Assembly (NCBI GenBank): GCA_024277475.1
Contig: JAJRVC010000648.1
Location: 1-11,062, forward strand
Direction of reading: 5' to 3'
DNA length: 11,062 bases
From: Deltaproteobacteria bacterium
GTDB taxonomy: Bacteria > Desulfobacterota > Desulfobacteria > Desulfobacterales > JAFDCJ01
Position numbers and translations under genes: made by a program. Below the pieces are notes generated by a model. It was given only the letters and a program-made list of their open reading frames with translations, searched no databases and had not been told where the DNA came from. This document shows, in pieces, positions 8-11,062 of this stretch. Positions within the stretch are counted from its first letter, which is position 1. The number at the start of each line of letters is the position of its first letter.

Positions 8-124
8 AAATGAGCAATTTTTTCTCTGAGCAAGGCCGCACAAGGGTTTACGTTGAGACGTACTTTTCGTACTTCGCAGACGTAAACCCGCGGAGAACGC
101 CGCTCAGAGAAAAAAGGGCCATTT
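8..124. repeat. Large nested inverted repeat upstream of the redox-sensor cassette
   Basis: Three nested stems share nearly the same centre, around position 66. The outer stem is TTTTTTCTCTGAGC at 18-31 against its exact complement at 102-115 (14 bp). The middle stem is GGGTTTACGT at 44-53 against ACGTAAACCC at 80-89 (10 bp). The inner stem is GTAC at 60-63 against GTAC at 69-72. The outer and middle stems are separated by 12 unpaired bases on each side, so the structure is symmetrical. A short AAATG/CATTT match at 8-12 and 120-124 extends it with a one-base offset. It ends 66 bases before the first gene. It could be a leader RNA hairpin, a transcription-attenuating structure or a small palindromic mobile repeat; the sequence alone does not decide. 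An open frame runs through it from position 10 but has no coding character there. Confidence 0.75.
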
Positions 125-189
125 ATGGATGGAAACTAGCTCACACAGGTTCTCTGACTTTAACAGGAATGGTATTTTGGGCGGTGCAG

Positions 190-543
190 ATGAAATTATC
201 GCAAATTGTTAGAGCTCTGGAGGCAAAGGTCCTCACGGGAGATGATCTTTTGGAAAAAAATATTGACACCTGCGGCGCCAGTGACTTGATGAGCGACATT
301 CTGGCCGGGTTGTCGGAAGGGTGTCTTCTGTTAACGGGGTTGACAACGGTCCAGGTGATCCGGACAGCGATGATCGCAGGTGTCGGCGCCGTGGTCTTCG
401 TCAGAGGAAAAACGCCGCCTCAGCAGGTGATCGATTTGGCTGGAGAACAGGGGCTGCCGTTGATCTCAAGCCCCTATTCCATGTTTGTTTCGTGCGGCAG
501 GTTGCATGCCTGCAACCTAACGGGTCTGGACGGGAAAAGATAA
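190..543 (+). CDS. DRTGG domain protein, first copy (signalling accessory)
   Basis: The product is a 117-residue single-domain DRTGG protein. DRTGG domains are small alpha/beta modules found next to CBS pairs, in phosphotransacetylases, and as stand-alone proteins in [FeFe]-hydrogenase gene clusters; their ligand is not established. The family pattern is clear: CGASDLMSDIL at residues 28-38, LLLTGLTTVQVIRTA at 46-60, the core strand AVVFVRGKTP at 67-76, and a YSMF...CGRLH ending at 96-106. The frame is open back to position 10, but those extra 60 codons cross the inverted repeat and do not resemble the family, so I start at ATG 190 (ATG 169 is the next choice). The Shine-Dalgarno site is weak. 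It is the first gene of a six-gene same-strand run and pairs conceptually with the second DRTGG gene at 2535. It is probably soluble and cytoplasmic, with no signal peptide or membrane segment. Confidence 0.85.
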   Translation: MKLSQIVRALEAKVLTGDDLLEKNIDTCGASDLMSDILAGLSEGCLLLTGLTTVQVIRTAMIAGVGAVVFVRGKTPPQQVIDLAGEQGLPLISSPYSMFVSCGRLHACNLTGLDGKR

Positions 544-770
544 AAAATTTCGTACAACCCTTCCTTCAGGTGATAACCAATTCATCCTGATGAGTTTATC
601 CGGTCGCCCCTGTCACCTGCCGGCCGGATTTGAGTGCAACCGCATTCAGCCATATCGTTATCGACTCCTATATCATGGTGTTCAGATCTTGAGGCAATCG
701 CCGACAGACTGTATCCGCAATAATGCGGACCGGGCACCAAACCTCTGTCAACGGTAAACTGGAAAAAATC
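544..770 (+). other. Intergenic stretch with a possible decayed reading frame
   Basis: This is the widest gap inside the first cassette, where the other genes overlap or nearly touch. No ribosome-binding site, terminator or stable hairpin is evident. Frame 3 from about 594 to 692 reads protein-like residues (including SHIVIDSYIMVF) before a TGA at 690-692. A +1 shift at about 685 continues as DLEAIADRLYPQ and stops at 721-723. This could be the tail of a gene broken by a frameshift, or chance. I do not recognise a family. The ATG at 723 opens the frame of the next gene but adds 16 residues that do not resemble that family. Confidence 0.3.
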
Positions 771-1217
771 ATGGCAGGTCTAAAGAAAAACTACCGCATC
801 AGTGCTAAAGACTTCATTCGGGCCGGGGAAGCCTCGATCAACATTCAAAATCTTCTCAAAACCCTGAGTTTCGACCCTAAACTGATCCGTCGGGTAGCCA
901 TATGCGGCTATGAGGGGGAAATGAATGTGGTGATGCACGGGGGAGACGGGCAGATGATTGTCGAAATTGATGCCGATCAGCTTGCCATGGAAATTTCGGA
1001 TAATGGCCCGGGTATTGAAGATATTAATAAGGCCATGCAAAAAGGCTATTCCACCGCATCCGACGAACACCGTGAAATGGGATTTGGTGCCGGCATGGGT
1101 TTGCCGAACATGCAAAAAAATTCAGATAAAATCGCAGTTTATTCTGAAAGGGGTCAGGGCACCCGGGTTCAAATGCTCTTCTTTTTGAATGCAGCAGGAG
1201 AAAAAATTGAAACCTGA
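771..1217 (+). CDS. RsbW-like anti-sigma-type ATPase (GHKL fold)
   Basis: A 148-residue stand-alone HATPase_c protein of the serine-protein-kinase/anti-sigma-factor type. Visible ATP-fold motifs, numbered from ATG 771: the N box YEGEMNVVMHG with E48 and N52, the G1 box DNGPGIED starting at D77, and the G2 lid GFGAGMGLPNM at about 104-114. The preceding REM and the GYSTASDE segment are typical of the members that sit in hydrogenase operons. No HisKA dimerisation helix, receiver or sensor domain is present, so it is not a complete histidine kinase. In RsbW/SpoIIAB such proteins bind a sigma factor and phosphorylate an antagonist; no sigma or STAS antagonist gene lies in this window. A longer start at ATG 723 is possible, but neither ATG has a convincing Shine-Dalgarno site, and the family similarity begins just after 771. 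The stop overlaps the start of the following Fe-S gene, suggesting translational coupling. Confidence 0.85.
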   Translation: MAGLKKNYRISAKDFIRAGEASINIQNLLKTLSFDPKLIRRVAICGYEGEMNVVMHGGDGQMIVEIDADQLAMEISDNGPGIEDINKAMQKGYSTASDEHREMGFGAGMGLPNMQKNSDKIAVYSERGQGTRVQMLFFLNAAGEKIET

Positions 1218-2538
1218 TGACACAACCTCCCCTTATGTGCAATTTGATGAAGCACGATGCACCGGTTGTGCAAATTGCATGAAGGCCTGCCCAACCACTG
1301 CCATTCGAATTAAAGGTAACAAATCCATTCAACTGGTGGGTCGATGCATCGGTTGCGGAGAATGCATCCGGGTATGCAAGGCCGGGGCTGTGAGTGCAGC
1401 CACCGGTACGTTGGACCGACTCAACCAAGATCGAATCTCAGTCGCTATGGTGACACCGGTTTTATATGCCCAGTTTCCCGGCGTAATGCCTAAAGACATT
1501 CTACTGGCGCTTAAATTGATGGGTTTTCGACACACTGTAGATATGTCGTATTTCCTTGAAATGTTTCAATACGGCACAGAAGAATTTATTATCAGAAACA
1601 GGCAGACCCGGCAGGCACCAAATCCGATTATTTCTCCTGTGTGCCCGGTGGTCACCCGGCTCATCGCCTTCAAGTTCCCAAATCTTATGCCCCACGTACT
1701 TCCATTGTTAAGACCGGTTGATCTGATGGCACGCGATGCCATGCAACGGATTGTGCAGAAATACGATATAGGTGAAGATGAATTGGATTTATATTACATC
1801 AACCCTTGTCCGACAAAACAGAGTACCGTTCACCCGACTCCCCGGGAGCGGGGTTCCTTTACCGGCATTGCCCTTGGGGTTAACGATATCTATGCGGATC
1901 TGATTCGACAACTGGAAAAAATTAAAGAAGCCGACCACATCGCATTTGCGGACAACAGCTTTGACTTTGAATATTGTCAAACGGGAAACGGCCCGATGTG
2001 GGGCATGTCGGGCGGCGAGATATCAGATCTGAACATCGAAAATACACTGGCAGTTTCCGGATTAATTGATACCATTGCCTACCTTGAAAAAATTGAAATG
2101 GGCCTGTTCAGCAATATTGAATATATCGAGTTTAGAACCTGCCGCGAGGGATGCCTGGGGGGGGCCATCACGGCAATTGACAAATATTTAGCCAAAAGCG
2201 CTGTGAATAAAATGATTAAAATGCTCGGCATTGGAAAGCGTCTTTCCCGTGAAAAAGTTCTGCGCCTTTATGAGAAGGGGGAGTTGCTGGAAAATAGAGA
2301 TCCCGAGAAACTGATTCGATTGTTTGGTGCCAGAAAAGAAGGCATGTCGATTGATGCCATGCAAGAAATCGATTCGATTTTAGAGCAACTGCCGGGCCGG
2401 GACTGCTCCGCCTGTGGAGCACCAAACTGCAAAATATTTGCCGAAGATGTTGTTAAAGGCGAAGCCTCGATGGAGGAATGCTTTTTGTTGAGCACACATG
2501 CAAAGGACCCGGCGGGGAAAGGAAGGGGGGAAGCATGA
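1207..2538 (+). CDS. Hydrogenase-like sensory Fe-S protein (non-catalytic H-cluster domain)
   Basis: A 443-residue protein, numbered from TTG 1207. Two [4Fe-4S] ferredoxin motifs come first (C18, C21, C24, C28 and C47, C50, C53, C57). A domain homologous to the [FeFe]-hydrogenase large-subunit C-terminal domain follows, then a C-terminal Fe-S motif (C400, C403, C408, C425, in a CSACGAPNC...EDVV context) like that of RnfB and CODH/ACS gamma. The three H-cluster regions appear as SPVCP (C146), NPCPTK (C201, K204) and TCREGC (C312, C316). These match the four cubane ligands and the cyanide-contacting lysine of catalytic enzymes. The proton-relay cysteine next to the first ligand is valine (V145), and methionines around the cluster are replaced. 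That pattern suits sensor-type hydrogenase homologues rather than H2-producing enzymes. TTG 1207 is chosen because AGGAG at 1196-1200 lies six bases upstream; ATG 1189, six codons earlier, lacks such a site. It overlaps the upstream gene by 11 bases and the downstream one by four. Confidence 0.9.
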   Translation: MKPDDTTSPYVQFDEARCTGCANCMKACPTTAIRIKGNKSIQLVGRCIGCGECIRVCKAGAVSAATGTLDRLNQDRISVAMVTPVLYAQFPGVMPKDILLALKLMGFRHTVDMSYFLEMFQYGTEEFIIRNRQTRQAPNPIISPVCPVVTRLIAFKFPNLMPHVLPLLRPVDLMARDAMQRIVQKYDIGEDELDLYYINPCPTKQSTVHPTPRERGSFTGIALGVNDIYADLIRQLEKIKEADHIAFADNSFDFEYCQTGNGPMWGMSGGEISDLNIENTLAVSGLIDTIAYLEKIEMGLFSNIEYIEFRTCREGCLGGAITAIDKYLAKSAVNKMIKMLGIGKRLSREKVLRLYEKGELLENRDPEKLIRLFGARKEGMSIDAMQEIDSILEQLPGRDCSACGAPNCKIFAEDVVKGEASMEECFLLSTHAKDPAGKGRGEA

Positions 2539-2882
2539 CGGTTAACGATCTGGCGGATCGCTTTTCGTTGAAAGTAGTCGCCGGGGAAAAAGGACTCGAT
2601 CGCCGGGTTGCAGACGGCTACTGTGGTGATTTACTCAGTGAAATTATGGGCAATGCCCCTGAGGGTTGTGTCTGGCTGACCATCCAGGGGCATCAAAACA
2701 TCGTAGCCGTTGCGGTTCTGCGTAATATGGCTGCCATCATTGTAACCGGTGGGCAGACGCCCGATGATGAAACCTTGCAAAAAGCAAACCAGGAAGAAAT
2801 TCCAATACTGTCAGGGTCTGATTCTGCGTATCAACTTGCCGGTCGTCTATATGCCGCGGGTATCGGAAATGCTCCGGTCTAG
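2535..2882 (+). CDS. DRTGG domain protein, second copy
   Basis: A 115-residue DRTGG-domain protein. Family features are GYCGDLLSEIMGNA at residues 28-41, EGCVWLTIQGHQNIVAVAVL at 43-62, AAIIVTGGQTPDDETL at 66-81, and an AGRLYAAG end at 102-109. The ATG overlaps the stop of the Fe-S sensor (ATGA), and a GGAAGGGGGG purine run at 2521-2530 acts as ribosome-binding site. This fixes the start; the open frame extends to 2478 but only inside the preceding gene. It is clearly divergent from the first copy: it has QGHQNIVAVA where the first has GLTTVQVIRT. The two therefore represent separate subfamilies rather than a recent duplication, and could act as a heteromeric pair. The function of stand-alone DRTGG proteins is unknown. 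Confidence 0.88.
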   Translation: MTVNDLADRFSLKVVAGEKGLDRRVADGYCGDLLSEIMGNAPEGCVWLTIQGHQNIVAVAVLRNMAAIIVTGGQTPDDETLQKANQEEIPILSGSDSAYQLAGRLYAAGIGNAPV

Positions 2883-2913
2883 TGAATTTTTCCATATAAG
2901 GATACTGGTCTGA

Positions 2914-3468
2914 TTGCGGGAATTATCGCTTCACATACTGGATGTTGCTGAAAACGGGATTACCGCGGGTGCCGATTGTATTCATATCCTGGTGGCAGAA
3001 GCCCGCACCGCAGATCTATTGACCCTTAAAATTACAGACAACGGCCGCGGGATGCCCACCGAAAAAATTGAAAAACTTACCGACCCGTTCGTTACTTCCC
3101 GGACAACCCGCAGGGTCGGTTTAGGGCTGTCACTGTTAGCGGCGGCGGCAGAGCGTTGCGAAGGCAGGCTAACGGTTAAGACGGAGCCGGGTGCCGGCAC
3201 GGAAGTGAAAGCCACCTTTCGTTACAGCCACATCGATCGTGCCCCGGTGGGAGATATGGCCGCAACGATTACCACGCTGATCATGGGCAATCCGCAAATC
3301 GATTTTGTATACACCCACATCATTAACGGCGAAGAATTCTCCCTGGACACCCGGGAGCTCAAAGCTCAGATGGGAAATCTTTCCCTGACAAACCCTGTGG
3401 TTGTTCATCATCTGACAGCATCCATCCGCAATTCACTCGAACAATTGATGGCAAAAAGCGGCCAATAA
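2914..3468 (+). CDS. GHKL-type ATP-binding protein of hydrogenase clusters
   Basis: A 184-residue protein in two parts. Residues 1 to about 105 form a histidine-kinase-like ATPase fold with N box HILDVAENGITAGA (H7, D10, N14), G1 box DNGRGM (42-47) and G2 box VGLGLSLL (68-75). The remaining 80 residues form a conserved tail that starts YSHIDRAPVGDM, includes GNPQIDFVYTH, and is specific to this family. DPFVTSRTTRRVGLGL resembles the ATP lid of true histidine kinases, but there is no phosphoacceptor histidine helix and no sensor domain. The start is TTG at 2914, with AAGGA at 2898-2902 upstream. No in-frame ATG precedes the N box, and family members begin with the same M-x-ELSLHILD pattern. 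It lies 31 bases after the second DRTGG gene and 18 bases before the ferredoxin gene, so it is probably cotranscribed with both. A substrate for the ATPase is unknown. Confidence 0.87.
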   Translation: MRELSLHILDVAENGITAGADCIHILVAEARTADLLTLKITDNGRGMPTEKIEKLTDPFVTSRTTRRVGLGLSLLAAAAERCEGRLTVKTEPGAGTEVKATFRYSHIDRAPVGDMAATITTLIMGNPQIDFVYTHIINGEEFSLDTRELKAQMGNLSLTNPVVVHHLTASIRNSLEQLMAKSGQ

Positions 3469-3486
3469 GAAAAAAGGGAGCAAATC

Positions 3487-3855
3487 ATGACAAAATTGAC
3501 AATTGAGGATTTAAAAAGAATAAAGGACCACACTGCGAAAAGTACTTCCCTGCGGGACGGCGATGCAAACGTAAAAATAACGGTTCATATGGGCACCTGC
3601 GGGATTGCCGCCGGTGCACGCGAAGTCATGAACGCGCTGATGGAGGAAATGGCCGCCGCTGACCGCCAGGATATCCGCGTAGTCACATCCGGCTGCATGG
3701 GAATGTGCAGCAGCGAGCCCAATGTAACTGTTGAAATCCAGCACGGCGAACCAATTGTCTATCAACACATGGATTCCAACAGGATGCGCCAGGTATTCAA
3801 GCGGCATGCACTTCTGGGCGAAGTTCAGACTGATTTTGCTTTGGCAAAAATGTGA
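3487..3855 (+). CDS. Thioredoxin-like [2Fe-2S] ferredoxin (NuoE/HndA-related)
   Basis: A 122-residue small ferredoxin. About 29 N-terminal helical residues precede the thioredoxin-like [2Fe-2S] domain, which carries MGTCGIAAGARE (C38) and SGCMGMCSSEPNV (C70, C74). This is the fold found in NuoE/HndA and at the N terminus of NuoF/HydB subunits of NAD-linked hydrogenases, where it relays single electrons. Only three cysteines are visible, so the fourth cluster ligand is not obvious; the same three-cysteine pattern is known to me from NuoF-type N-terminal domains. GGGAG at 3476-3480, six bases before ATG 3487, fixes the start. It is the last gene of the cassette, with nothing of a catalytic hydrogenase downstream. 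The ferredoxin half of the minus-strand fusion protein at 9676-10419 matches residues 29-120 at 52 of 92 positions, counted by hand. It is likely a redox partner of the Fe-S sensor. Confidence 0.9.
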   Translation: MTKLTIEDLKRIKDHTAKSTSLRDGDANVKITVHMGTCGIAAGAREVMNALMEEMAAADRQDIRVVTSGCMGMCSSEPNVTVEIQHGEPIVYQHMDSNRMRQVFKRHALLGEVQTDFALAKM

Positions 3856-4043: not shown

Positions 4044-5171
4044 ATGAATGTAGACGGCAAAGACATCCGCACTATTTGGCTCGATGAACATGAAAAAACA
4101 ATAAAAATCATTGATCAGAGAAAACTGCCCCATGAATTTGTTATTGTGGCCTTAAAAACAGTTGACGACGCTATTAAAGCCGTCAAAAATATGTATGTGA
4201 GGGGCGCACCCCTTATCGGAGTAACCGGAGCTTATGCGGTTTACCTGGCAGCCTTGAACGCGCCGAGCGGTCAAATTGACACGGAATACCTGCAGCATGA
4301 AGCCCGTCGCATCAAATCAGCTCGACCCACGGCCGTTAATCTTGCCTGGGGTGTCGACCAGGTTTTATCGAAAATATTGAATGAATCGGATCCTGAAAAA
4401 AAAATTGCTTTGGCCAAACATATCAGTGGTGCGATCACAGAACTGGAAGTGGAAAACTGCCGAAAAATTGGAGAACACGGTTTATCTTTAATTAAGCGGA
4501 TCAGTCACCAAAAAAGGGGCAAAACCGTCAATATCCTGACCCATTGCAATGCCGGCTGGCTGGCCTGTATCGAATACGGCACGGCCACCGCGCCTATCTA
4601 TGCCGCATTTGATAAAGGCATCGATATTCACGTCTGGGTGGATGAAACCCGACCGCTCAACCAGGGTGCCCGGTTGACGGCCTGGGAGCTTGGCAAACAC
4701 GGAGTTCAGCACACCATCATCACCGACAACGCCGGCGGTCATCTGATGCAGCATGCCAGGGTGGATATGGTCATCGTAGGCACGGACCGAACGACTGCAA
4801 CCGGTGACGTAGCCAACAAAATCGGTACTTATCTGAAAGCACTGGCCGCCTGGGACAACAACATACCCTTCTATGTTGCGCTGCCTTCCAGCACATTTGA
4901 CTGGAACCTCAAAGACGGTATTAAAGACATCCCCATCGAACAGCGTGGTTCCGATGAAATTAAATATGTTCACGGACTGGACCAGGACCGGTCGACCAGC
5001 GTTTTGATTTGCCCGCCGACCAGTCAAGCAGCCAATTTTGCCTTTGATGTCACACCGGCAAAATTTGTAACCGGATTTATTACCGAAAGAGGGATCTGCA
5101 AAGCAACCGAAGAAGATATTCGGCGGCTGTTCCCTGACAGGGACGGTCGAAGGATGACGGAAGTCAGATGA
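4044..5171 (+). CDS. mtnA: S-methyl-5-thioribose-1-phosphate isomerase
   Basis: A 375-residue enzyme that converts 5-methylthioribose 1-phosphate to 5-methylthioribulose 1-phosphate in 5'-methylthioadenosine salvage; related enzymes may also accept 5-deoxyribose 1-phosphate. The eIF2B-like isomerase signatures are all present: VRGAPLIGV at 52-60, ILTHCNAG at 164-171 with catalytic cysteine C168, DETRPLNQGARLTAWEL at 200-216, ITDNAGG at 226-232, GTDRTTATGDVANKIGTY at 246-263 with catalytic aspartate D248, and the VALPSSTFD segment near 278-286. Length is normal for the family. The start ATG 4044 is followed directly by family-like sequence, although the ribosome-binding site is weak. No other salvage gene (mtnP, mtnK, mtnB, mtnD) is adjacent, so the pathway must be completed elsewhere or end in a shortened shunt. 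It is cytosolic, with no unusual truncation. Confidence 0.97.
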   Translation: MNVDGKDIRTIWLDEHEKTIKIIDQRKLPHEFVIVALKTVDDAIKAVKNMYVRGAPLIGVTGAYAVYLAALNAPSGQIDTEYLQHEARRIKSARPTAVNLAWGVDQVLSKILNESDPEKKIALAKHISGAITELEVENCRKIGEHGLSLIKRISHQKRGKTVNILTHCNAGWLACIEYGTATAPIYAAFDKGIDIHVWVDETRPLNQGARLTAWELGKHGVQHTIITDNAGGHLMQHARVDMVIVGTDRTTATGDVANKIGTYLKALAAWDNNIPFYVALPSSTFDWNLKDGIKDIPIEQRGSDEIKYVHGLDQDRSTSVLICPPTSQAANFAFDVTPAKFVTGFITERGICKATEEDIRRLFPDRDGRRMTEVR

Positions 5172-5405
5172 CAGAGAACAGAAAGCAGAGGGCAGAGTGA
5201 ATCGAAATAGGTTTCAGCCCGCCCTGGCCTCCGGTTCCGCTTCCAGGCCGGAAGGTAACCTACGCCTCGGGGTAGGCGATATAACGGGTTCTTACTGTTT
5301 ACTGTAGCAGATCCTAATAATCAATTATTCAACAATTTAACCAAAGCCAAACGATCACAACGGCCCAAACCATCTAAACCAACTTAACGATCCAAACGAT
5401 TGAAT
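5172..5405 (+). other. Motif-rich intergenic region between mtnA and ahbB
   Basis: No gene is visible. From 5172 a purine-rich run repeats CAGAG-like units (ACAGAG, ACAGAA, GCAGAG, GCAGAG). At 5221-5278 a GC-rich block can fold in competing ways: GGCCT 5226-5230 with AGGCC 5245-5249, TCCGG 5230-5234 with CCGGA 5248-5252, and CCTAC 5259-5263 with GTAGG 5272-5276. No T run follows, so an intrinsic terminator is not convincing. Positions near 5291-5305 carry a TTACTG-type doublet. AATAAT-CA-ATTATT forms a short palindrome near 5316-5329. From about 5347 the sequence is C/A-rich with repeated AACGATC units up to the ahbB start. Confidence 0.45.
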
Positions 5406-5888
5406 ATGCTGACGGAACTTGAAAAAAAACTTATTGCTTCGATTCAGGAAGATATTGCTGTAACCGGTCGTCCTTATCTGGATATCGCAAAGAAACTGGG
5501 CATATCAGAGGAGACATTGCTTGAAAGTCTTCAAAGTCTTTGCAACCGGGGATTCATTCGACGATTTGGAGCCACCCTGCGTCACCAGAAGACAGGATTC
5601 ACCGCCAATGCCATGGCTGCCTGGCAGGTTGACGAAAATCGTATTGACGAAGTCGGCAATAAAATGGCCTCATTCCGGCAGGTCTCCCACTGTTACCGGC
5701 GCAACCCTACCGATAGCTGGCCGTATAATCTTTACACCATGATTCATGCCGGCGACAAAGCAGCATGCCGTCTGACCGCCCGCAAAATGTCACAGGATGC
5801 TTCGGTTGAGAATTACACCCTTCTTTTCAGTCGCAGGGAACTGAAAAAAACCTCGATGGTATATTTCCCCTCGGATGAGGATGACTGA
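5406..5888 (+). CDS. ahbB: Siroheme decarboxylase subunit, AhbB type
   Basis: A 160-residue Lrp/AsnC-like protein of the AhbA/AhbB/NirDLGH group. The AhbAB pair decarboxylates siroheme to 12,18-didecarboxysiroheme in the alternative haem route of sulfate reducers and methanogens. Residues 1 to about 55 form a winged-helix-like part (LDIAKKLGISEETLLESL) ending in GFIRRFGATLRHQ. The ligand-binding part shows GFTANAMAAW at 64-73, VSHCYRRN at 93-100 with H95, WPYNLYTMIH at 105-114 with H114, and RRELKKTSMVYF at 143-154. The SHCY...WPYNL...TMIH pattern and RELKKTSM tail favour the AhbB over the AhbA branch, which I expect to show THNY...YN.WFT. It is an enzyme relative of transcription factors rather than a regulator. 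ATG 5406 is used; TTG 5400 two codons earlier is an alternative, and neither has a clear Shine-Dalgarno site. No ahbA partner is adjacent. Confidence 0.85.
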   Translation: MLTELEKKLIASIQEDIAVTGRPYLDIAKKLGISEETLLESLQSLCNRGFIRRFGATLRHQKTGFTANAMAAWQVDENRIDEVGNKMASFRQVSHCYRRNPTDSWPYNLYTMIHAGDKAACRLTARKMSQDASVENYTLLFSRRELKKTSMVYFPSDEDD

Positions 5889-5963
5889 AAAAATACCCGA
5901 TGTTCACTGCCTCCCATCAATAGGGTTATCGCGCCAGACCACCGACGAAGGACCACTGAGAAT

Positions 5964-7307
5964 ATGCCGACCTGCAGCACCCCGCACATTCTGCTCATCA
6001 ACCCCTGGATCCATGATTTCGCCGCCTACGACTTCTGGGCCAAACCCATGGGTCTGCTCACCATCGCTTCCACGTTGGGGCATCATGGTATTCAGGTTTC
6101 CTATATCGACTGCCTGGATCGTTTTCACCCCCATGCCCCCGGATCCGACCCGGCGGCAAAATACGGCCGCGGCCCCTATCTTAAAACCCGCATTCCAAAA
6201 CCTATCGCATTACATGACGTACCGCGCTATTTTTCACGATACGGAATAAAACCGCAATGGTTCAAAGAAGATCTTCTTAAACAGGACCAGCCCGATCTTG
6301 TGCTGGTCACTTCGCTGATGACATACTGGTATCCGGGTGTGCAGGAAACCATTGAAATCATAAGATCGGTGTTTCCGCAAACGCCCATCGTGCTGGGCGG
6401 TATATACGCGCGGTTGTGTCATAAGCATGCCCGAAACAACTCCGGGGCGGATCATGTTGCCGATGGACCGGCGGAGAAGAATCTAGTTTCCCTCGTTCGT
6501 CGGTTTACCGGTTATTCAATCAGCCCGGCGTTTGATCCGGATGATCTGGATTGTCACCCCTACCCTGCCCTGGATTTGCAAACCATGATCAATTATGTCC
6601 CCCTGTTGACTTCCCGGGGCTGTCCGTTTCAATGTGCCTACTGTGCATCCCACCTGTTGGAACCCAAACGCCTGTTGCGCAGCCCTGTGGCGGTCATTGA
6701 AGAAATCAGATACTGGAAAAAGACCTATGGGCTGAACGATTTTATTTTATACGACGACGCCTTTCTAATCGATAGCGACCGGCATGCAATTCCCCTTTTA
6801 GAAGGAATTCTCCGCACGGGTATTAAGGTGCGCTTTCACACACCCAATGCCTTACACATCCGTGGAATAGACGCACAAACCGCCCGGCTCATGTTCGAGG
6901 CCGGTTTTACCACCCTGCGTCTCGGATTGGAAACAGCGGAATTTGACCACCGGGAGGAAATCGACCTAAAAGTCACTGAAGACGAGTTTAAACGATCGGT
7001 AAGCTGCCTGAAAGAAGCCGGATTTAAAAAAAACCAGGTCGGAGCTTATCTGCTGGTCGGTCTTCCCGATCAAAAATCAGATACCATCAGACGTTCCATC
7101 GATATCGTAAAGCAGATCGGAATAACCCCTGTTGCGGCATACTACACCCCTATTCCCCACACGGCCCTGTGGCCCAAAGCGGTGGCGGCCTCCCGCTATG
7201 ATCTCGAGTCTGATCCGATTTTCACCAACAACGCCGTGATTCCCTGCCAAAAGGAACCCTTTAGCTGGGAAACGGTGCGCTCTCTCAAAGAGCTGATCAA
7301 CGAGTGA
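5964..7307 (+). CDS. B12-binding-type radical SAM protein
   Basis: A 447-residue protein with a cobalamin-binding-like N-terminal domain (about 1-180) and a radical SAM domain (about 210-400). The N terminus HILLINPW, the GLLTIASTLGHHG segment at 30-42, the VSYIDCLD strand at 45-52 and VLGGIYARL at 143-151 follow the usual B12-domain architecture. The SAM cluster motif is SRGCPFQCAYCAS with C220, C224 and C227. DDAF at 264-267 and LGLET at 320-324 are further radical SAM landmarks. The canonical DxHxxG cobalamin-ligand motif is not evident, so base-off cobalamin binding may not occur. The substrate is unknown. It follows ahbB by 75 bases on the same strand and may be cotranscribed. It is not AhbC or AhbD, which lack a B12 domain. 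ATG 5964 is preceded by GAAGGA at about 5948-5953. Confidence 0.85.
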   Translation: MPTCSTPHILLINPWIHDFAAYDFWAKPMGLLTIASTLGHHGIQVSYIDCLDRFHPHAPGSDPAAKYGRGPYLKTRIPKPIALHDVPRYFSRYGIKPQWFKEDLLKQDQPDLVLVTSLMTYWYPGVQETIEIIRSVFPQTPIVLGGIYARLCHKHARNNSGADHVADGPAEKNLVSLVRRFTGYSISPAFDPDDLDCHPYPALDLQTMINYVPLLTSRGCPFQCAYCASHLLEPKRLLRSPVAVIEEIRYWKKTYGLNDFILYDDAFLIDSDRHAIPLLEGILRTGIKVRFHTPNALHIRGIDAQTARLMFEAGFTTLRLGLETAEFDHREEIDLKVTEDEFKRSVSCLKEAGFKKNQVGAYLLVGLPDQKSDTIRRSIDIVKQIGITPVAAYYTPIPHTALWPKAVAASRYDLESDPIFTNNAVIPCQKEPFSWETVRSLKELINE

Positions 7308-7491
7308 AATCGACGCTGAAATAGAGCATTTTTCGCTCAATTCGTATTTACATCATAGGGTCTGACATCATATATGAAACTTCAGAACTCCAATATCATT
7401 TTCGTGAAATTCCACACGTGGATACAGAGAGCAGATTTCGTCGTCGTCCTCGTTCTTCTTCCTCTATAAAATTCTGATTAATTCGCATGCA

Positions 7492-7511
7492 TGAACCCTT
7501 GAACCCTGAAC
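7492..7511 (+). repeat. Tandem 8-mer TGAACCCT motif, copy 2
   Basis: The unit TGAACCCT occurs twice, followed by a partial third unit (GAAC). Its first 15 bases match the copy at 3986-4000 exactly and in the same orientation. It lies 25 bases before the -35 box of the pepA promoter, where it could overlap an upstream regulatory region, although its recurrence elsewhere argues for a dispersed repeat. Confidence 0.6.
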
Positions 7512-7535
7512 ATAGGTTTACATCGTTGTTTTTAA

Positions 7536-7564
7536 TTGACACCCGGCTACCATCTCTCTATACT
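7536..7564 (+). promoter_or_regulatory. Near-consensus sigma-70 promoter for pepA
   Basis: TTGACA at 7536-7541 and TATACT at 7559-7564 are separated by 17 bases: a perfect -35 box, a -10 box one base off consensus, and ideal spacing. Transcription would start around 7570-7573, giving a leader of under 40 bases that carries the GGGAG ribosome-binding site at 7594-7598 before ATG 7609. It is the best-matching promoter I see in the window and suggests strong constitutive expression of pepA. Confidence 0.8.
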
Positions 7565-7608
7565 CCCCTTCATTTAAAAAGACCAGCCAAAAAGGGAGAC
7601 ACAAAACT

Positions 7609-9081
7609 ATGCTGCGTTTGACATCCATTGATCTGAATAAATCGGCAATCGATACCTTTGCCATTGCCGTCTGCGAAGATGAGGATATTCATGGAGACCC
7701 GATAATAAAAGCAGTCACTATAAAGGCGCTCAAACTCGAGGAATTTAGCGGGAAAAAAGATGAAACCGTGACGCTTTACGATATACCCGATATTAAGGCA
7801 CAACGGGTGATCCTGTGGGGACTTGGCAAACTTGAAAAAACAGATCGTGAAGCGTTGCGCAGCATGGCCGGCAAAATCGTGAAACATTGCATCAATAAAA
7901 AGCTGACGAGCCTGTGTTTCGCTGTTCCCGATCCTTCAAGGATTAAAATGGAAATGTCCTCAGTTTTAAAGGCAATGCAGGAAGGCGCTTATCTTGGAAA
8001 CCACTTGTTCCATAAATTCAAAGGCGAAAAAAAGAAAAAAGAACTCAAACAAATTCATTTCCGGATCACAGAACGAGTCACCCAAAAATTGCGACAATTG
8101 ACTTTAAGAGTTGCTGCCATATGTGAGGGCACCACCCTGGCCAGAGATTGGGTCAACACACCTTCAAATGAAAAGACACCTGAGAAATTGACCCGGTCCA
8201 TCGTAAGCCTGGCAAAAAAACAGGGTCTAAAAATACAGGTGCTCAATGAAGCGCAATTGAAGCAAAAAAAACTTGGTGCATTGCTGGCTGTCGCTGCCGG
8301 CAGTCAAAGCAAACCCAGTCTAGTCATACTCGAGCACAGGGTGCCGGGTGCGAAAAAGACCCTGGCCCTGGTGGGCAAAGGTGTAACTTTTGATTCCGGT
8401 GGTCTCAATATCAAAACCGGCACATCGATTTCGGACATGAAATCTGATATGTCCGGCGCAGCGGCGGTGGCGGCCACCCTGATTGCAGCGGCTAAACTCA
8501 AAACAAAAACAAATATTATAGGAGCCATTCCCATCGTTGAAAACATGCCGTCAGGCCAGGCAACGCGCCCCGGGGATATCATTCGCAGCTATGCCGGTAA
8601 AACCGTTGAAATCGGAAATACCGATGCTGAGGGGCGGCTGATTCTGATTGATGCGATATCGTACGTGATCAAAAGATACAAGCCGCAATTGCTCATTGAC
8701 CTGGCAACGTTGACAGGGGCCTGTGTCGTTGCCCTGGGAGATAAAATTGCCGGAGTATTTTCCAATGATGACGATTTGGCCGCCGGCATTATTGCATCCG
8801 GAGAAAAAACCCATGAGCGCTGCTGGCGGCTGCCACTGCCCGAAGATTATAAAGAATTGCTGAAAAGCGATTTTGCGGACATGAACAACATCAGCAGCAG
8901 CCGCGCAGGCGGTGCCATTACTGCGGCGCTCTTTCTTGCGGAGTTTGCCGCCGATACTCGCTGGGCACATATCGACATTGCCGGTCCGGCTTATCTTAAA
9001 ACGGAAAGTGCCTACTGCGGTCCCGGTGGAACGGGTTTCGGAGTGAGATTGCTTAGCGAAATATTATCCAAACATATTTGA
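7609..9081 (+). CDS. pepA: Leucyl aminopeptidase (cytosol aminopeptidase, M17)
   Basis: A 490-residue M17 metallopeptidase that removes N-terminal residues from peptides using two metal ions, normally as a cytosolic hexamer. The N-terminal macro-like domain covers about 1-165, with a lysine-rich linker at 137-147. The catalytic domain shows VGKGVTFDSGGLNIK with K257, D262 and K269, DMKSDMSGAAA with D280, and the family signature NTDAEGRL with D339, E341 and R343. These line up with E. coli PepA residues K270, D275, K282, D293, D352, E354 and R356 at a constant offset of 13, so the active site is complete. LIDLATLTGACVVALG follows at 362-377, and the chain ends in the expected GFGVRLL segment. 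A ribosome-binding site GGGAG lies ten bases upstream of the ATG. Some PepA proteins also bind DNA; nothing here shows that. The gene is convergent with the minus-strand cluster, with 32 bases between stops and no obvious terminator. Confidence 0.97.
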   Translation: MLRLTSIDLNKSAIDTFAIAVCEDEDIHGDPIIKAVTIKALKLEEFSGKKDETVTLYDIPDIKAQRVILWGLGKLEKTDREALRSMAGKIVKHCINKKLTSLCFAVPDPSRIKMEMSSVLKAMQEGAYLGNHLFHKFKGEKKKKELKQIHFRITERVTQKLRQLTLRVAAICEGTTLARDWVNTPSNEKTPEKLTRSIVSLAKKQGLKIQVLNEAQLKQKKLGALLAVAAGSQSKPSLVILEHRVPGAKKTLALVGKGVTFDSGGLNIKTGTSISDMKSDMSGAAAVAATLIAAAKLKTKTNIIGAIPIVENMPSGQATRPGDIIRSYAGKTVEIGNTDAEGRLILIDAISYVIKRYKPQLLIDLATLTGACVVALGDKIAGVFSNDDDLAAGIIASGEKTHERCWRLPLPEDYKELLKSDFADMNNISSSRAGGAITAALFLAEFAADTRWAHIDIAGPAYLKTESAYCGPGGTGFGVRLLSEILSKHI

Positions 9082-9113
9082 AAGTTAGCAATAGTTCTCA
9101 GGGAATTTTACAG

Positions 9114-9596
9114 CTACCAGCCGCCCAGAATATCCTGACCTCTACGATGGGCGGCCTCTTCCTGCAAATTGTGGAACCTTGCGCCGACAAGATTAGCCAG
9201 ATTCGAAATCACCGCATACCCGATATCCGGATCTTTTCCGAAGAGCTCTAAAAGGCTTTCTCTTTCGACCTTGAATAATTTACACCCGTTAGCGCCACTG
9301 TATGCTGAAAGTCTATATTTGTTGGGTGGCACGATACTTGACCATCCGAAGGCACCCGCTTCAGGTATTGATGATATCGTGTTTTCTTCAGATGAAGCGA
9401 GTCCCGGAAAATCAAACCGCAAATCCACCCGGCCCTCCTGGACTATCCAGAGATAAGCAGCATTTTCGCCTTTCTTAAAAAGCCTGGTTTCATGCTTAAA
9501 CTCTTCTTCTTCACCATATTTTATAATTTCAGCAAGCTGTTCATTATTCAGGTTCTGGAAGATTTCGACGTTTTTAAAAAATTCTAAACTTATCAT
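9114..9596 (-). CDS. Stand-alone cyclic-nucleotide-binding-like domain protein
   Basis: A 160-residue CRP-fold sensor domain without a DNA-binding helix-turn-helix, so not a classical CRP/FNR regulator. The jelly-roll features are RLFKKGENAAYLWIVQEG at 38-55, VDLRFDFP at 57-64, FGWSSIVPPNKYRLSAY at 83-99, then CKLFKVERESLLELF. In true cAMP-binding proteins the phosphate-binding cassette carries FGE and an RxA motif. Here the glutamate position is tryptophan (W85) and the loop is rewritten as SSIVPPNKYRLSAY, so cAMP binding is doubtful and another ligand is likely. The fusion protein immediately upstream matches it at 73 of the first 145 positions without gaps (hand count), indicating a tandem duplication. 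AGGAG lies a few bases upstream of the ATG (complement of 9602-9608), confirming the start. The tail ends RRGQDILGGW. It is the last gene of the minus-strand run. Confidence 0.88.
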   Translation of the reverse strand: MISLEFFKNVEIFQNLNNEQLAEIIKYGEEEEFKHETRLFKKGENAAYLWIVQEGRVDLRFDFPGLASSEENTISSIPEAGAFGWSSIVPPNKYRLSAYSGANGCKLFKVERESLLELFGKDPDIGYAVISNLANLVGARFHNLQEEAAHRRGQDILGGW

Positions 9597-9675
9597 GACG
9601 ATCTCCTTTGAATCGGATAGAACGATTCAAACACAATCCAAGTACAATGAATATTGCGAACTGATTTAGCCATTT

Positions 9676-10419
9676 CTATGCCAGGACATAATCAGTCAGA
9701 ACTTCACCCGCAAGGATATGTTTCTCGAAAACCCTTCGTATTTTATCTGGGTTCATTTTCTGGTAAATTACCGGATCTTCACCTTCTATCTCTACCGTCA
9801 CGTTTGGTTCGGTATCGCATTTACCAATGCACGGGCCACTTTTAATCCGGATATGCGGCCGGTCGGCAAGGGCCATTTCATCCATCAGGGCGCTCATTAC
9901 CTGACGGGCACCGGCAACGATACCGCATGTTGCCAGATGCACGGTAATCTGAATACCGGCATAGGAGGCTGTCCAGGCTAAATCCTGCAACTGGTTGAAG
10001 CGTTCCCCAATAATCTCTACCAGATTTGACATGACCACATAACCGATTTGAGAATCCGCTTCAAAAATTTTTACCAGATTCTCCCTCTCAATCTGGATTA
10101 CTTTGCAGTCTCTGGTAGCACAGTAGGCTGACAATCTGTATTTGTTCGGCGCCACAAGGCTGGACCAGCCGAAAGTCATAAATTTGAAAATTGACGAGAG
10201 GGTGTTTTTGGCCGAAGTGGGACGATCCGGCAAATCAAAACGCAGATCAACCTGTCCTTTTTGCACAATCCACAAGCAGGCAGCCTCTTCTCCCTCACTG
10301 AAGAGCCTTTCATTTTGCCGGAATTCCTTTTCACGGCAGTGGTCCCGTATCCCGACGAGCCTGCCGTCATCCAGGCCTTTAAATACCTCAACACTTCGCA
10401 GAAAGCCGAGATCTGTCAT
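9676..10419 (-). CDS. Fusion of cNMP-binding-like domain with [2Fe-2S] ferredoxin domain
   Basis: A 247-residue two-domain protein. Residues 1 to about 147 form a CRP-type jelly roll (RLFSEGEEAACLWIVQKG, FGWSSLVAPNKYRLSAY, ERENLVKIF). Residues about 155-247 form a thioredoxin-like [2Fe-2S] ferredoxin with HLATCGIVAGAR (C165) and GPCIGKC (C197, C201), ending GEVLTDYVLA. The domains are joined by only about seven residues after NQLQD. The ferredoxin half matches the plus-strand ferredoxin at 52 of 92 positions; the jelly-roll half matches the neighbouring protein at 73 of 145. Neither part is decayed. The phosphate cassette lacks the canonical glutamate, as in the neighbour. There is no DNA-binding domain, so output is probably through protein contact or electron transfer. 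AGGGGG (complement of 10425-10430) lies five bases before the ATG. It begins 25 bases after the PHP gene. A likely origin is in-frame fusion of adjacent genes. Confidence 0.85.
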   Translation of the reverse strand: MTDLGFLRSVEVFKGLDDGRLVGIRDHCREKEFRQNERLFSEGEEAACLWIVQKGQVDLRFDLPDRPTSAKNTLSSIFKFMTFGWSSLVAPNKYRLSAYCATRDCKVIQIERENLVKIFEADSQIGYVVMSNLVEIIGERFNQLQDLAWTASYAGIQITVHLATCGIVAGARQVMSALMDEMALADRPHIRIKSGPCIGKCDTEPNVTVEIEGEDPVIYQKMNPDKIRRVFEKHILAGEVLTDYVLA

Positions 10420-10444
10420 CTCTACCCCCTTCTTATTATCTTAA

Positions 10445-11062
10445 TTAAGTAATTTTGAAATCAATCCTTCTGCCATCCTTGTTTTTCAAAGCCAGGCGGA
10501 TTTCGTCCAAACTGGGTGCCGCCAGGGTGAATACAGTTTTAGTTTTACCGATATCCTCCGGGAAGTGGGCGTCAGAGGATGAGATGCACGGAAAATCCAT
10601 AATACCGGGGATCTTTTCGTGGACATCCTGGAGCGGTATCCGATACGAAACTTCCAAACCATCAAGCAATAAATCCGCCGGAATAAACCCAAGCTGGCCG
10701 ATAATACCAAAGGACGGGCGGTCAACATGAGAGGCAATGCTTAATCCCCCAAGCTTATGTATCTTCGTGACGACATCCTGCAGACTCAATCGCGAAGCCC
10801 CAATCAGCAGACGGGAAACCTCTCCGCGGATCTCATCATCTTCGTTTACAATCACCTGATACCCGAACACCTCCGCCTGGTTTTCACCGGGCAGATGGGC
10901 ATAGACGAATTCCTGCATCACCTGGGCCTGTTCAACGGTACTAAAAATCCCCAGGATGTGGACTTCCTCTCTGGAACAGATTTCCATCCCCGGAAGAACG
11001 CAAAGACCCAGCTTATCGCCCAAACGTACCGCCGCCTGAACATTTTCCGCTGAATTATGATC
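10445..11062 (-). CDS. PHP-domain phosphoesterase (5' end beyond window)
   Basis: The last 205 residues of a PHP-domain metal-dependent phosphoesterase; the start lies beyond position 11062. The visible part begins DHNSAENVQAA, the second half of the N-terminal PHP metal motif (normally TDHN). It continues with GMEICSREEVHILGIF at 25-40 of the fragment (a metal-ligand glutamate), IASHVDRPSFG at 109-119 (histidine) and SSSDAHFPEDIG at 161-172 (Asp and His). These are the expected PHP ligands, so the enzyme is probably active. PHP proteins hydrolyse phosphoester bonds of nucleotides or small metabolites; the substrate here is unknown. A start codon TTG at 11023 exists but would cut off the metal motif, so it is rejected. 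PHP proteins of this type are familiar in [FeFe]-hydrogenase accessory operons with DRTGG and ATPase genes, which links it to the cluster at 190-3855. Confidence 0.87.
   Translation of the reverse strand, partial: DHNSAENVQAAVRLGDKLGLCVLPGMEICSREEVHILGIFSTVEQAQVMQEFVYAHLPGENQAEVFGYQVIVNEDDEIRGEVSRLLIGASRLSLQDVVTKIHKLGGLSIASHVDRPSFGIIGQLGFIPADLLLDGLEVSYRIPLQDVHEKIPGIMDFPCISSSDAHFPEDIGKTKTVFTLAAPSLDEIRLALKNKDGRRIDFKIT

Follow-up and report, generated by a model that had tools for sequence, protein, structure and literature searches.

A conserved protein family joining a remodelled cyclic-nucleotide-binding domain to an HndB-type domain in Desulfobacterales, encoded beside HydS-module and NADH/ferredoxin enzyme genes

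The bacterial DNA analysed here, a stretch of 11,062 nucleotides referred to as the window, encodes a 247-residue protein in which a cyclic-nucleotide-binding domain (cNBD) is fused to an HndB-type thioredoxin-like domain. This combination is conserved among relatives and recurs beside genes of a HydS-type module and of NADH/ferredoxin enzymes. The open reading frame (9676-10419, minus strand) passes uninterrupted through a cNBD fold and a thioredoxin-like [2Fe-2S]-ferredoxin fold, so the in-frame fusion claimed by an earlier note on this DNA holds. We infer, with a probability of roughly 0.45, that the fusion acts as an accessory subunit, probably a regulatory one, of electron-transfer complexes that are linked to NAD(P)H/ferredoxin and connected with a HydS-type module for hydrogen sensing. 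The relevant features of the window are as follows.

10..543, plus strand: DRTGG-domain protein 1
723..1217, plus strand: HATPase_c protein 1
1189..2538, plus strand: HydS-like [FeFe]-hydrogenase-type protein (PF02906, PF04060; motif C-x2-C-x4-C-x16-C at residue 406)
2478..2882, plus strand: DRTGG-domain protein 2
2914..3468, plus strand: HATPase_c protein 2
3487..3855, plus strand: stand-alone HndB-like protein, 122 aa
9114..9596, minus strand: stand-alone cNBD protein, 160 aa, 79 nt downstream of the fusion
9676..10419, minus strand: cNBD-HndB fusion protein, 247 aa, single frame (sequence and family alignment)
9679..9963, minus strand: C-terminal HndB-type thioredoxin-like domain of the fusion, residues 153-247
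9937-9939, 9925-9927, 9829-9831 and 9817-9819, minus strand: His161, Cys165, Cys197 and Cys201 of the HndB-type half
9970..10419, minus strand: N-terminal cyclic-nucleotide-binding fold, residues 1-150
10120-10122 and 10105-10107, minus strand: Cys100/Cys105 pair of the fusion cNBD
10165-10167, minus strand: Trp85 in place of the cassette Glu, N-terminal half of the fusion
10425..10431, minus strand: AAGGGGG, likely ribosome-binding site of the fusion (sequence)
10445..11062, minus strand: PHP-domain protein (PF13263), truncated at the end of the window, 25 nt upstream of the fusion

The AAGGGGG stretch provides the usable ribosome-binding site that had been claimed, and both halves have relatives in the window as stated, namely the stand-alone cNBD on the minus strand and the HndB-like protein on the plus strand. 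A complete homologue of the truncated PHP protein, 258 residues long, is present in locus L001. Scanning of 9050-11062 for promoters returned 6 sites versus 3.1 expected, one of them on the minus strand before the fusion (10464-10435); no terminator-like site appeared in a scan of the same segment, and no Rfam match at gathering score was obtained anywhere in the window. The HydS module (10-3855, plus strand) is found in related genomes beside NuoEF, beside formate dehydrogenase, or alone. Here it is separated from the fusion by mtnA, the siroheme decarboxylase gene ahbB, a radical SAM gene and a leucyl aminopeptidase gene (4044-9081, plus strand). In locus L079, HydS, HndB, the fusion and the cNBD form a continuous row that has mtnA, ahbB and the radical SAM gene at its flanks, so the gene order of the window appears to be rearranged.

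A protein search with the fusion yielded 382 relatives at E <= 0.001 and a second search, from the distant member L082, yielded 247; the best 120 of each set were used. Sequences of at least 225 residues totalled 258 (227 of 235 listed proteins, 30 locus proteins and that of the window), and the 253 distinct ones were aligned. Linker length was constant in 245 of 252 full-length relatives, consistent with the short linker described earlier. Of 389 genomes sampled evenly from the order to which genome G001 belongs, 30 carried the fusion at E <= 1e-45, two copies being cut by contig ends; G001 and G002 had been known as carriers before this sample. When 395 genomes were sampled evenly from the phylum, four full-length fusions were among the matches listed, that of G001 included, and named records with the fusion among the matches listed were Desulfobacterales MAGs. 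Relatives bear JGI names such as "CRP-like cAMP-binding protein/(2Fe-2S) ferredoxin" and "NADP-reducing hydrogenase subunit HndB". Thus, the architecture is unusual when set against known families, as the earlier note proposed, but it is no one-off: it belongs to a conserved family whose database names already show both domains. Two other proteins, P0232 (named as from Nitrospirota) and P0233, each contain two tandem HndB-type domains.

At the junction, all 32 fusion loci (31 plus the window) display one open frame, and two separate genes as the rule were rejected accordingly. The earlier note would have been undone by relatives always occurring as two genes; only L094 is broken, and it is nested among intact fusions. 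In L094 (genome G546, 535-1382), which lies before a formate dehydrogenase, the halves occupy different, overlapping frames at the junction while its relatives are intact. We considered L094 as an unfused ancestor and discarded the idea: the second half begins within the domain and has no N-terminal HndB part, and the locus groups with L069 (99/90), so that we read it as a frame break. This single broken copy is what could be said for an indel or mis-assembly having fused two genes, a reading refuted by the near-constant linker shared by 253 distinct full-length relatives and retaining practically no probability.

Phylogenetic analysis did not support the idea that the fusion arose recently out of the HndB at its own locus. 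In a tree of the HndB domain (95 columns, few for 68 rows), 29 stand-alone HndB rows formed one clade (100/98), with the fusion halves outside this main clade in a placement that the tree leaves unresolved. The cNBD tree, which has a weak backbone, requires at least three changes, which would fit either two gains of the fusion or a single gain with later losses, one in L094 and one in L100/L101. An origin by tandem duplication of an HndB-cNBD pair was considered; an HndB gene followed by an unfused cNBD gene was not seen. L100 and L101 (genomes G186 and G333) encode RnfB-GltD and, after it, a pair of stand-alone cNBDs; the first of the pair falls in the fusion clade and has no second half. A G333 match extending beyond a stop was checked, and no second-half remnant follows it.

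The N-terminal half of the fusion conforms to the cyclic-nucleotide-binding family profile and to the jelly-roll fold. In CRP and PKA, the cassette Glu of this fold binds ribose (2'-OH) and the cassette Arg binds phosphate. At the Glu position (column 85), the 253 relatives have Trp (242) or Tyr (11) and never Glu, while the Arg position (column 95, manual register) is occupied by Lys in 101, Arg in 94 and other residues in 58, the window protein having Arg. These substitutions undercut the notion of a small-ligand sensor as first put forward. Since the cassette Glu is replaced throughout, cAMP or cGMP is an unlikely ligand judging from these residues, and another ligand may be bound instead. 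The pocket is otherwise strongly conserved, with G84 and W/Y85 in 253 of 253 sequences, S86 and P91 in 252, Y94 and S97 in 250, and Ala98 in at least 250. A Cys-x4-Cys pair (Cys100, Cys105) lies across a predicted hairpin, each position being Cys in 246 of 253. Some members miss one cysteine (fusions L073, L076-L078 and L080), so the pair is not essential throughout; Cys100 is also absent from the window's own stand-alone cNBD. No helix-turn-helix family was reported for the fusion, and residues 153-247 are thioredoxin-like instead, which bears out the suggestion of a cNBD fold lacking a DNA-binding domain. CRP/FNR regulators (GlxR, MtbCRP, FNR), in contrast, have a helix-turn-helix where the fusion has its thioredoxin-like domain, and the fusion has no cassette Glu. 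Unlike the fusion, the cNBD protein Gmet_1532 (3mdp) is a stand-alone chain of 142 aa without the cysteine pair in the aligned segment. We know of no function for Gmet_1532.

By sequence, the C-terminal half is HndB-type and related to the N-terminal domain of NuoF/StnB-like subunits, rather than NuoE/HndA-like as first described. It has the thioredoxin-like [2Fe-2S] ferredoxin fold, the same fold as the N-terminal domain of NfnB-type flavoprotein subunits, and among solved structures it best matches the N-terminal domains of NfnB, StnB and an NfnABC subunit B rather than NuoE. The fusion matches PF01257 at 19.2 bits, under the curated cut-off of 24.8, although some relatives do carry PF01257 in precomputed annotation; the NuoE-type profile is matched at positions 67-143 of 145 only, without the helical N-terminal part and C-x4-C. 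Where NuoE and the NuoF N-terminal domain of the same loci have C-x4-C and C-x3-C, the fusion has H-x3-C and C-x3-C, and in an alignment with these sequences His161 falls on their first cluster Cys. All four residues, His161, Cys165, Cys197 and Cys201, are kept in 251 of 253 fusions, and the H-x3-C...C-x3-C pattern also occurs in all 31 HndB-like domains gathered from stand-alone proteins, proteins of this kind aligning with the fusion at 48-56%. Three Cys and one His are not a standard ligand set for thioredoxin-like ferredoxins.

Comparison with characterized proteins bears on whether this site holds a cluster. Among the closest known systems is HndB of the electron-bifurcating Hnd hydrogenase (Solidesulfovibrio fructosivorans): several fusion relatives bear its name in JGI records, and the second half has its H-x3-C and C-x3-C motif in common with the HndB-like domains collected here; where HndB has an N-terminal extension, the fusion has a whole cNBD. 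Excerpts from one report describe HndB as a fourth subunit, probably without a redox centre (PMC10084766). Together with the replacement of the first of four Cys by His, this speaks against the redox cluster that had been assigned to the second half. Nonetheless, StnB, in whose N-terminal domain two of four cysteines are changed to Gly according to an extract of PMC7483475, is modelled with one [2Fe2S] cluster in an extract of PMC10482914, and missing cysteines thus do not exclude a cluster. In NfnB/StnB-type subunits (9n5u, 9bp5/9bov, 8oh5) the domain is covalently within the flavin subunit, whereas here it is joined to a cNBD in a protein of its own. The His that the fusions conserve is missing from the aligned StnB and NfnB stretches.

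Gene neighbourhoods were compared in 32 fusion loci (the window, G001, G002, G351 and 28 others of the order sample), in which neighbours were labelled by their blastp matches to a set of 18 references drawn from the window, L002 and L010, a set that may overlook further partners. Wherever the upstream gene is visible (30 of 30 loci), the fusion is preceded on the same strand by a gene of a HydS-type [FeFe]-hydrogenase module, HndB, NuoF or RnfB-GltD: HndB in 12, RnfB-GltD in 6, HATPase2 in 5, PHP, HATPase1 and NuoF in 2 each, and DRTGG2 in 1, the remaining 2 reaching a contig end. Downstream, a same-strand stand-alone cNBD follows in 24 of the 30 loci where this gene is visible; the other cases comprise two formate-dehydrogenase-type genes, two contig ends and four others (three on the opposite strand). 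The formate-dehydrogenase-type label denotes a 29% match to the HydS reference, the L069 gene having been profiled as NuoG-like/formate dehydrogenase. HATPase2 is followed by HndB in 16 loci and by the fusion in 5 (21 of 21): the two occupy the same slot. Such neighbours were found for 31 of 32 fusions versus 7 of 14 stand-alone cNBDs in fusion-free loci; four of these seven control cNBDs belong to G186/G333 and one to the broken fusion L094.

Three settings recur. The fusion occurs with the HydS module and NuoEF (for example L002, L081 and L082), downstream of RnfB-GltD within an Rnf operon (L066 and L076 profiled), and immediately behind HATPase2 with no intervening HndB, in two cases ahead of formate dehydrogenase (L065, L069). 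Neighbour families include NuoE and NuoF (L002) and formate dehydrogenase alpha (L069). Profiles of the Rnf loci placed RnfD and RnfE above cut-off and RnfC below its cut-off, with FMN_bind also a neighbour family; L071, L077 and L078 have gene order and sizes as in L066 and L076. A class III cytochrome c/cytochrome c3 gene sits between the cNBD pair and the Rnf genes in L066 (profiled) and L076 (by size and sequence). Formate dehydrogenase alpha is split by an in-frame TGA in L065 (10631-13417) and L069 (10703-13471), in the context CARL-stop-HSSTVAGLA, which we take to be that of selenocysteine enzymes.

The window protein at 1189-2538 combines Fe_hyd_lg_C, an FeS domain and a C-x2-C-x4-C-x16-C tail without PAS. 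NCBIfam hydrogenase models score far below cut-off on it. In an extract of PMC8163306, M2e/group D HydS (TamHydS) is defined by a hydrogenase domain, the same tail and no PAS, a definition that fits this protein. Compared with TamHydS-type (M2e, group D) loci, which encode putative sensory [FeFe]-hydrogenases, the window module adds two HATPases, two DRTGG proteins, PHP and HndB. HydS modules here are found with NuoEF, formate dehydrogenase or Rnf, and the account of TamHydS loci in that extract (PMC8163306) mentions no cNBD-HndB protein. At E <= 1e-60, HydS is present in 25 of 30 fusion genomes versus 33 of the 359 other genomes of the order sample (Fisher p = 9.6e-19, uncorrected for kinship). 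The five fusion genomes without HydS at this threshold are drafts, and locus L087 of G678 has a partial HydS match at its contig start. Rnf-type fusion genomes carry HydS and HndB elsewhere. G186 and G333, with a cNBD inside the fusion clade and no second half, are without HydS (E <= 1e-40) and HndB (E <= 1e-15), whereas both are present at the same thresholds in 9 of 9 fusion-bearing genomes examined alongside. As a single event in two near-identical loci, this joint loss offers only a hint of a HydS link.

Collectively, an accessory or regulatory role is the likeliest in view of the genomic association with HydS and with NADH/ferredoxin enzymes, the way the fusion and HndB replace each other, and the relationship of the second half to a flavoprotein-subunit domain, though genomic association cannot separate an enzyme subunit from a regulator. 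Also weighing against this role are the Rnf-type loci, where no gene of the HydS module was labelled beside the fusion with the 18-reference set, the five fusion genomes without HydS at E <= 1e-60, and the seven control cNBDs that have similar neighbours. The HndB domain would dock on complexes of the NAD(P)H:ferredoxin type, whether NuoEF with formate dehydrogenase or RnfB-GltD with Rnf. The remodelled cNBD, without the residues that bind cAMP/cGMP, may report a different small molecule or redox state, and its signal could pass via a long helix (123-151) and the fixed-length linker to the docked domain; the predicted structure (pTM 0.60) does not establish the relative orientation of the two domains. 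The stand-alone cNBD encoded by the adjacent gene is a likely partner. The main rival, a serious but doubtful possibility, holds that the fusion and HndB are no enzyme subunits but belong to the HydS-HATPase-DRTGG-PHP module and relay the redox state of HydS by protein contacts. The invariable succession of HATPase2 by HndB or the fusion and the co-occurrence with HydS would follow naturally. However, in Rnf-type loci the fusion follows RnfB-GltD at a distance from HydS, and the extract on Solidesulfovibrio reports HndB as a subunit of the Hnd hydrogenase (PMC10084766).

The earlier note's coupling of a small-ligand sensor to a redox cluster corresponds to a ligand-gated [2Fe-2S] electron carrier, with a cyclic nucleotide sensor on one side. 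Both folds are sound, the three Cys and one His are retained in 251 of 253, and the StnB model offers a precedent; against this stand the absent fourth cysteine, the HndB report and a cassette with Glu in 0 and Arg in only 94 of 253, and we regard it as improbable. Much the same low standing falls to a scaffold function, in which the cNBD would be a ligand-free dimerisation or spacer domain and the HndB domain alone would work. Loss of the canonical ligand residues and the presence of another cNBD gene beside it at 24 of 30 loci accord with such a function, yet the new form of the pocket (G84, W/Y85, S86, P91, Y94, S97) is conserved beyond the needs of a spacer. Speculative, and unlikely as a whole, is a redox-and-metabolite coincidence switch, with a 3Cys/1His [2Fe-2S] cluster in the HndB half and a Trp-pocket in the cNBD binding a ligand other than a cyclic nucleotide beside a redox-active Cys100-x4-Cys105 hairpin. 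Plugged into bifurcating NuoEF/formate dehydrogenase or Rnf, this switch would decide, under the control of HydS, which way electrons flow between NADH and ferredoxin.

The single pieces of the fusion are of known kinds. In the open-access literature searched, no description was found of the cNBD-HndB combination, its motifs or its settings, although database names reflect both domains. Within that literature, the fusion is a conserved but apparently unstudied element of energy conservation in sulfate-reducer-type bacteria. HndB-type domains are not known to have an assigned function, and a sensor-fused version that swaps with HndB in operons gives a handle on their role. If the 3Cys/1His site holds a cluster, it would represent a new ligand set for the thioredoxin-like ferredoxin fold; if the HndB half has none, a ferredoxin fold would have been reused as a docking module.
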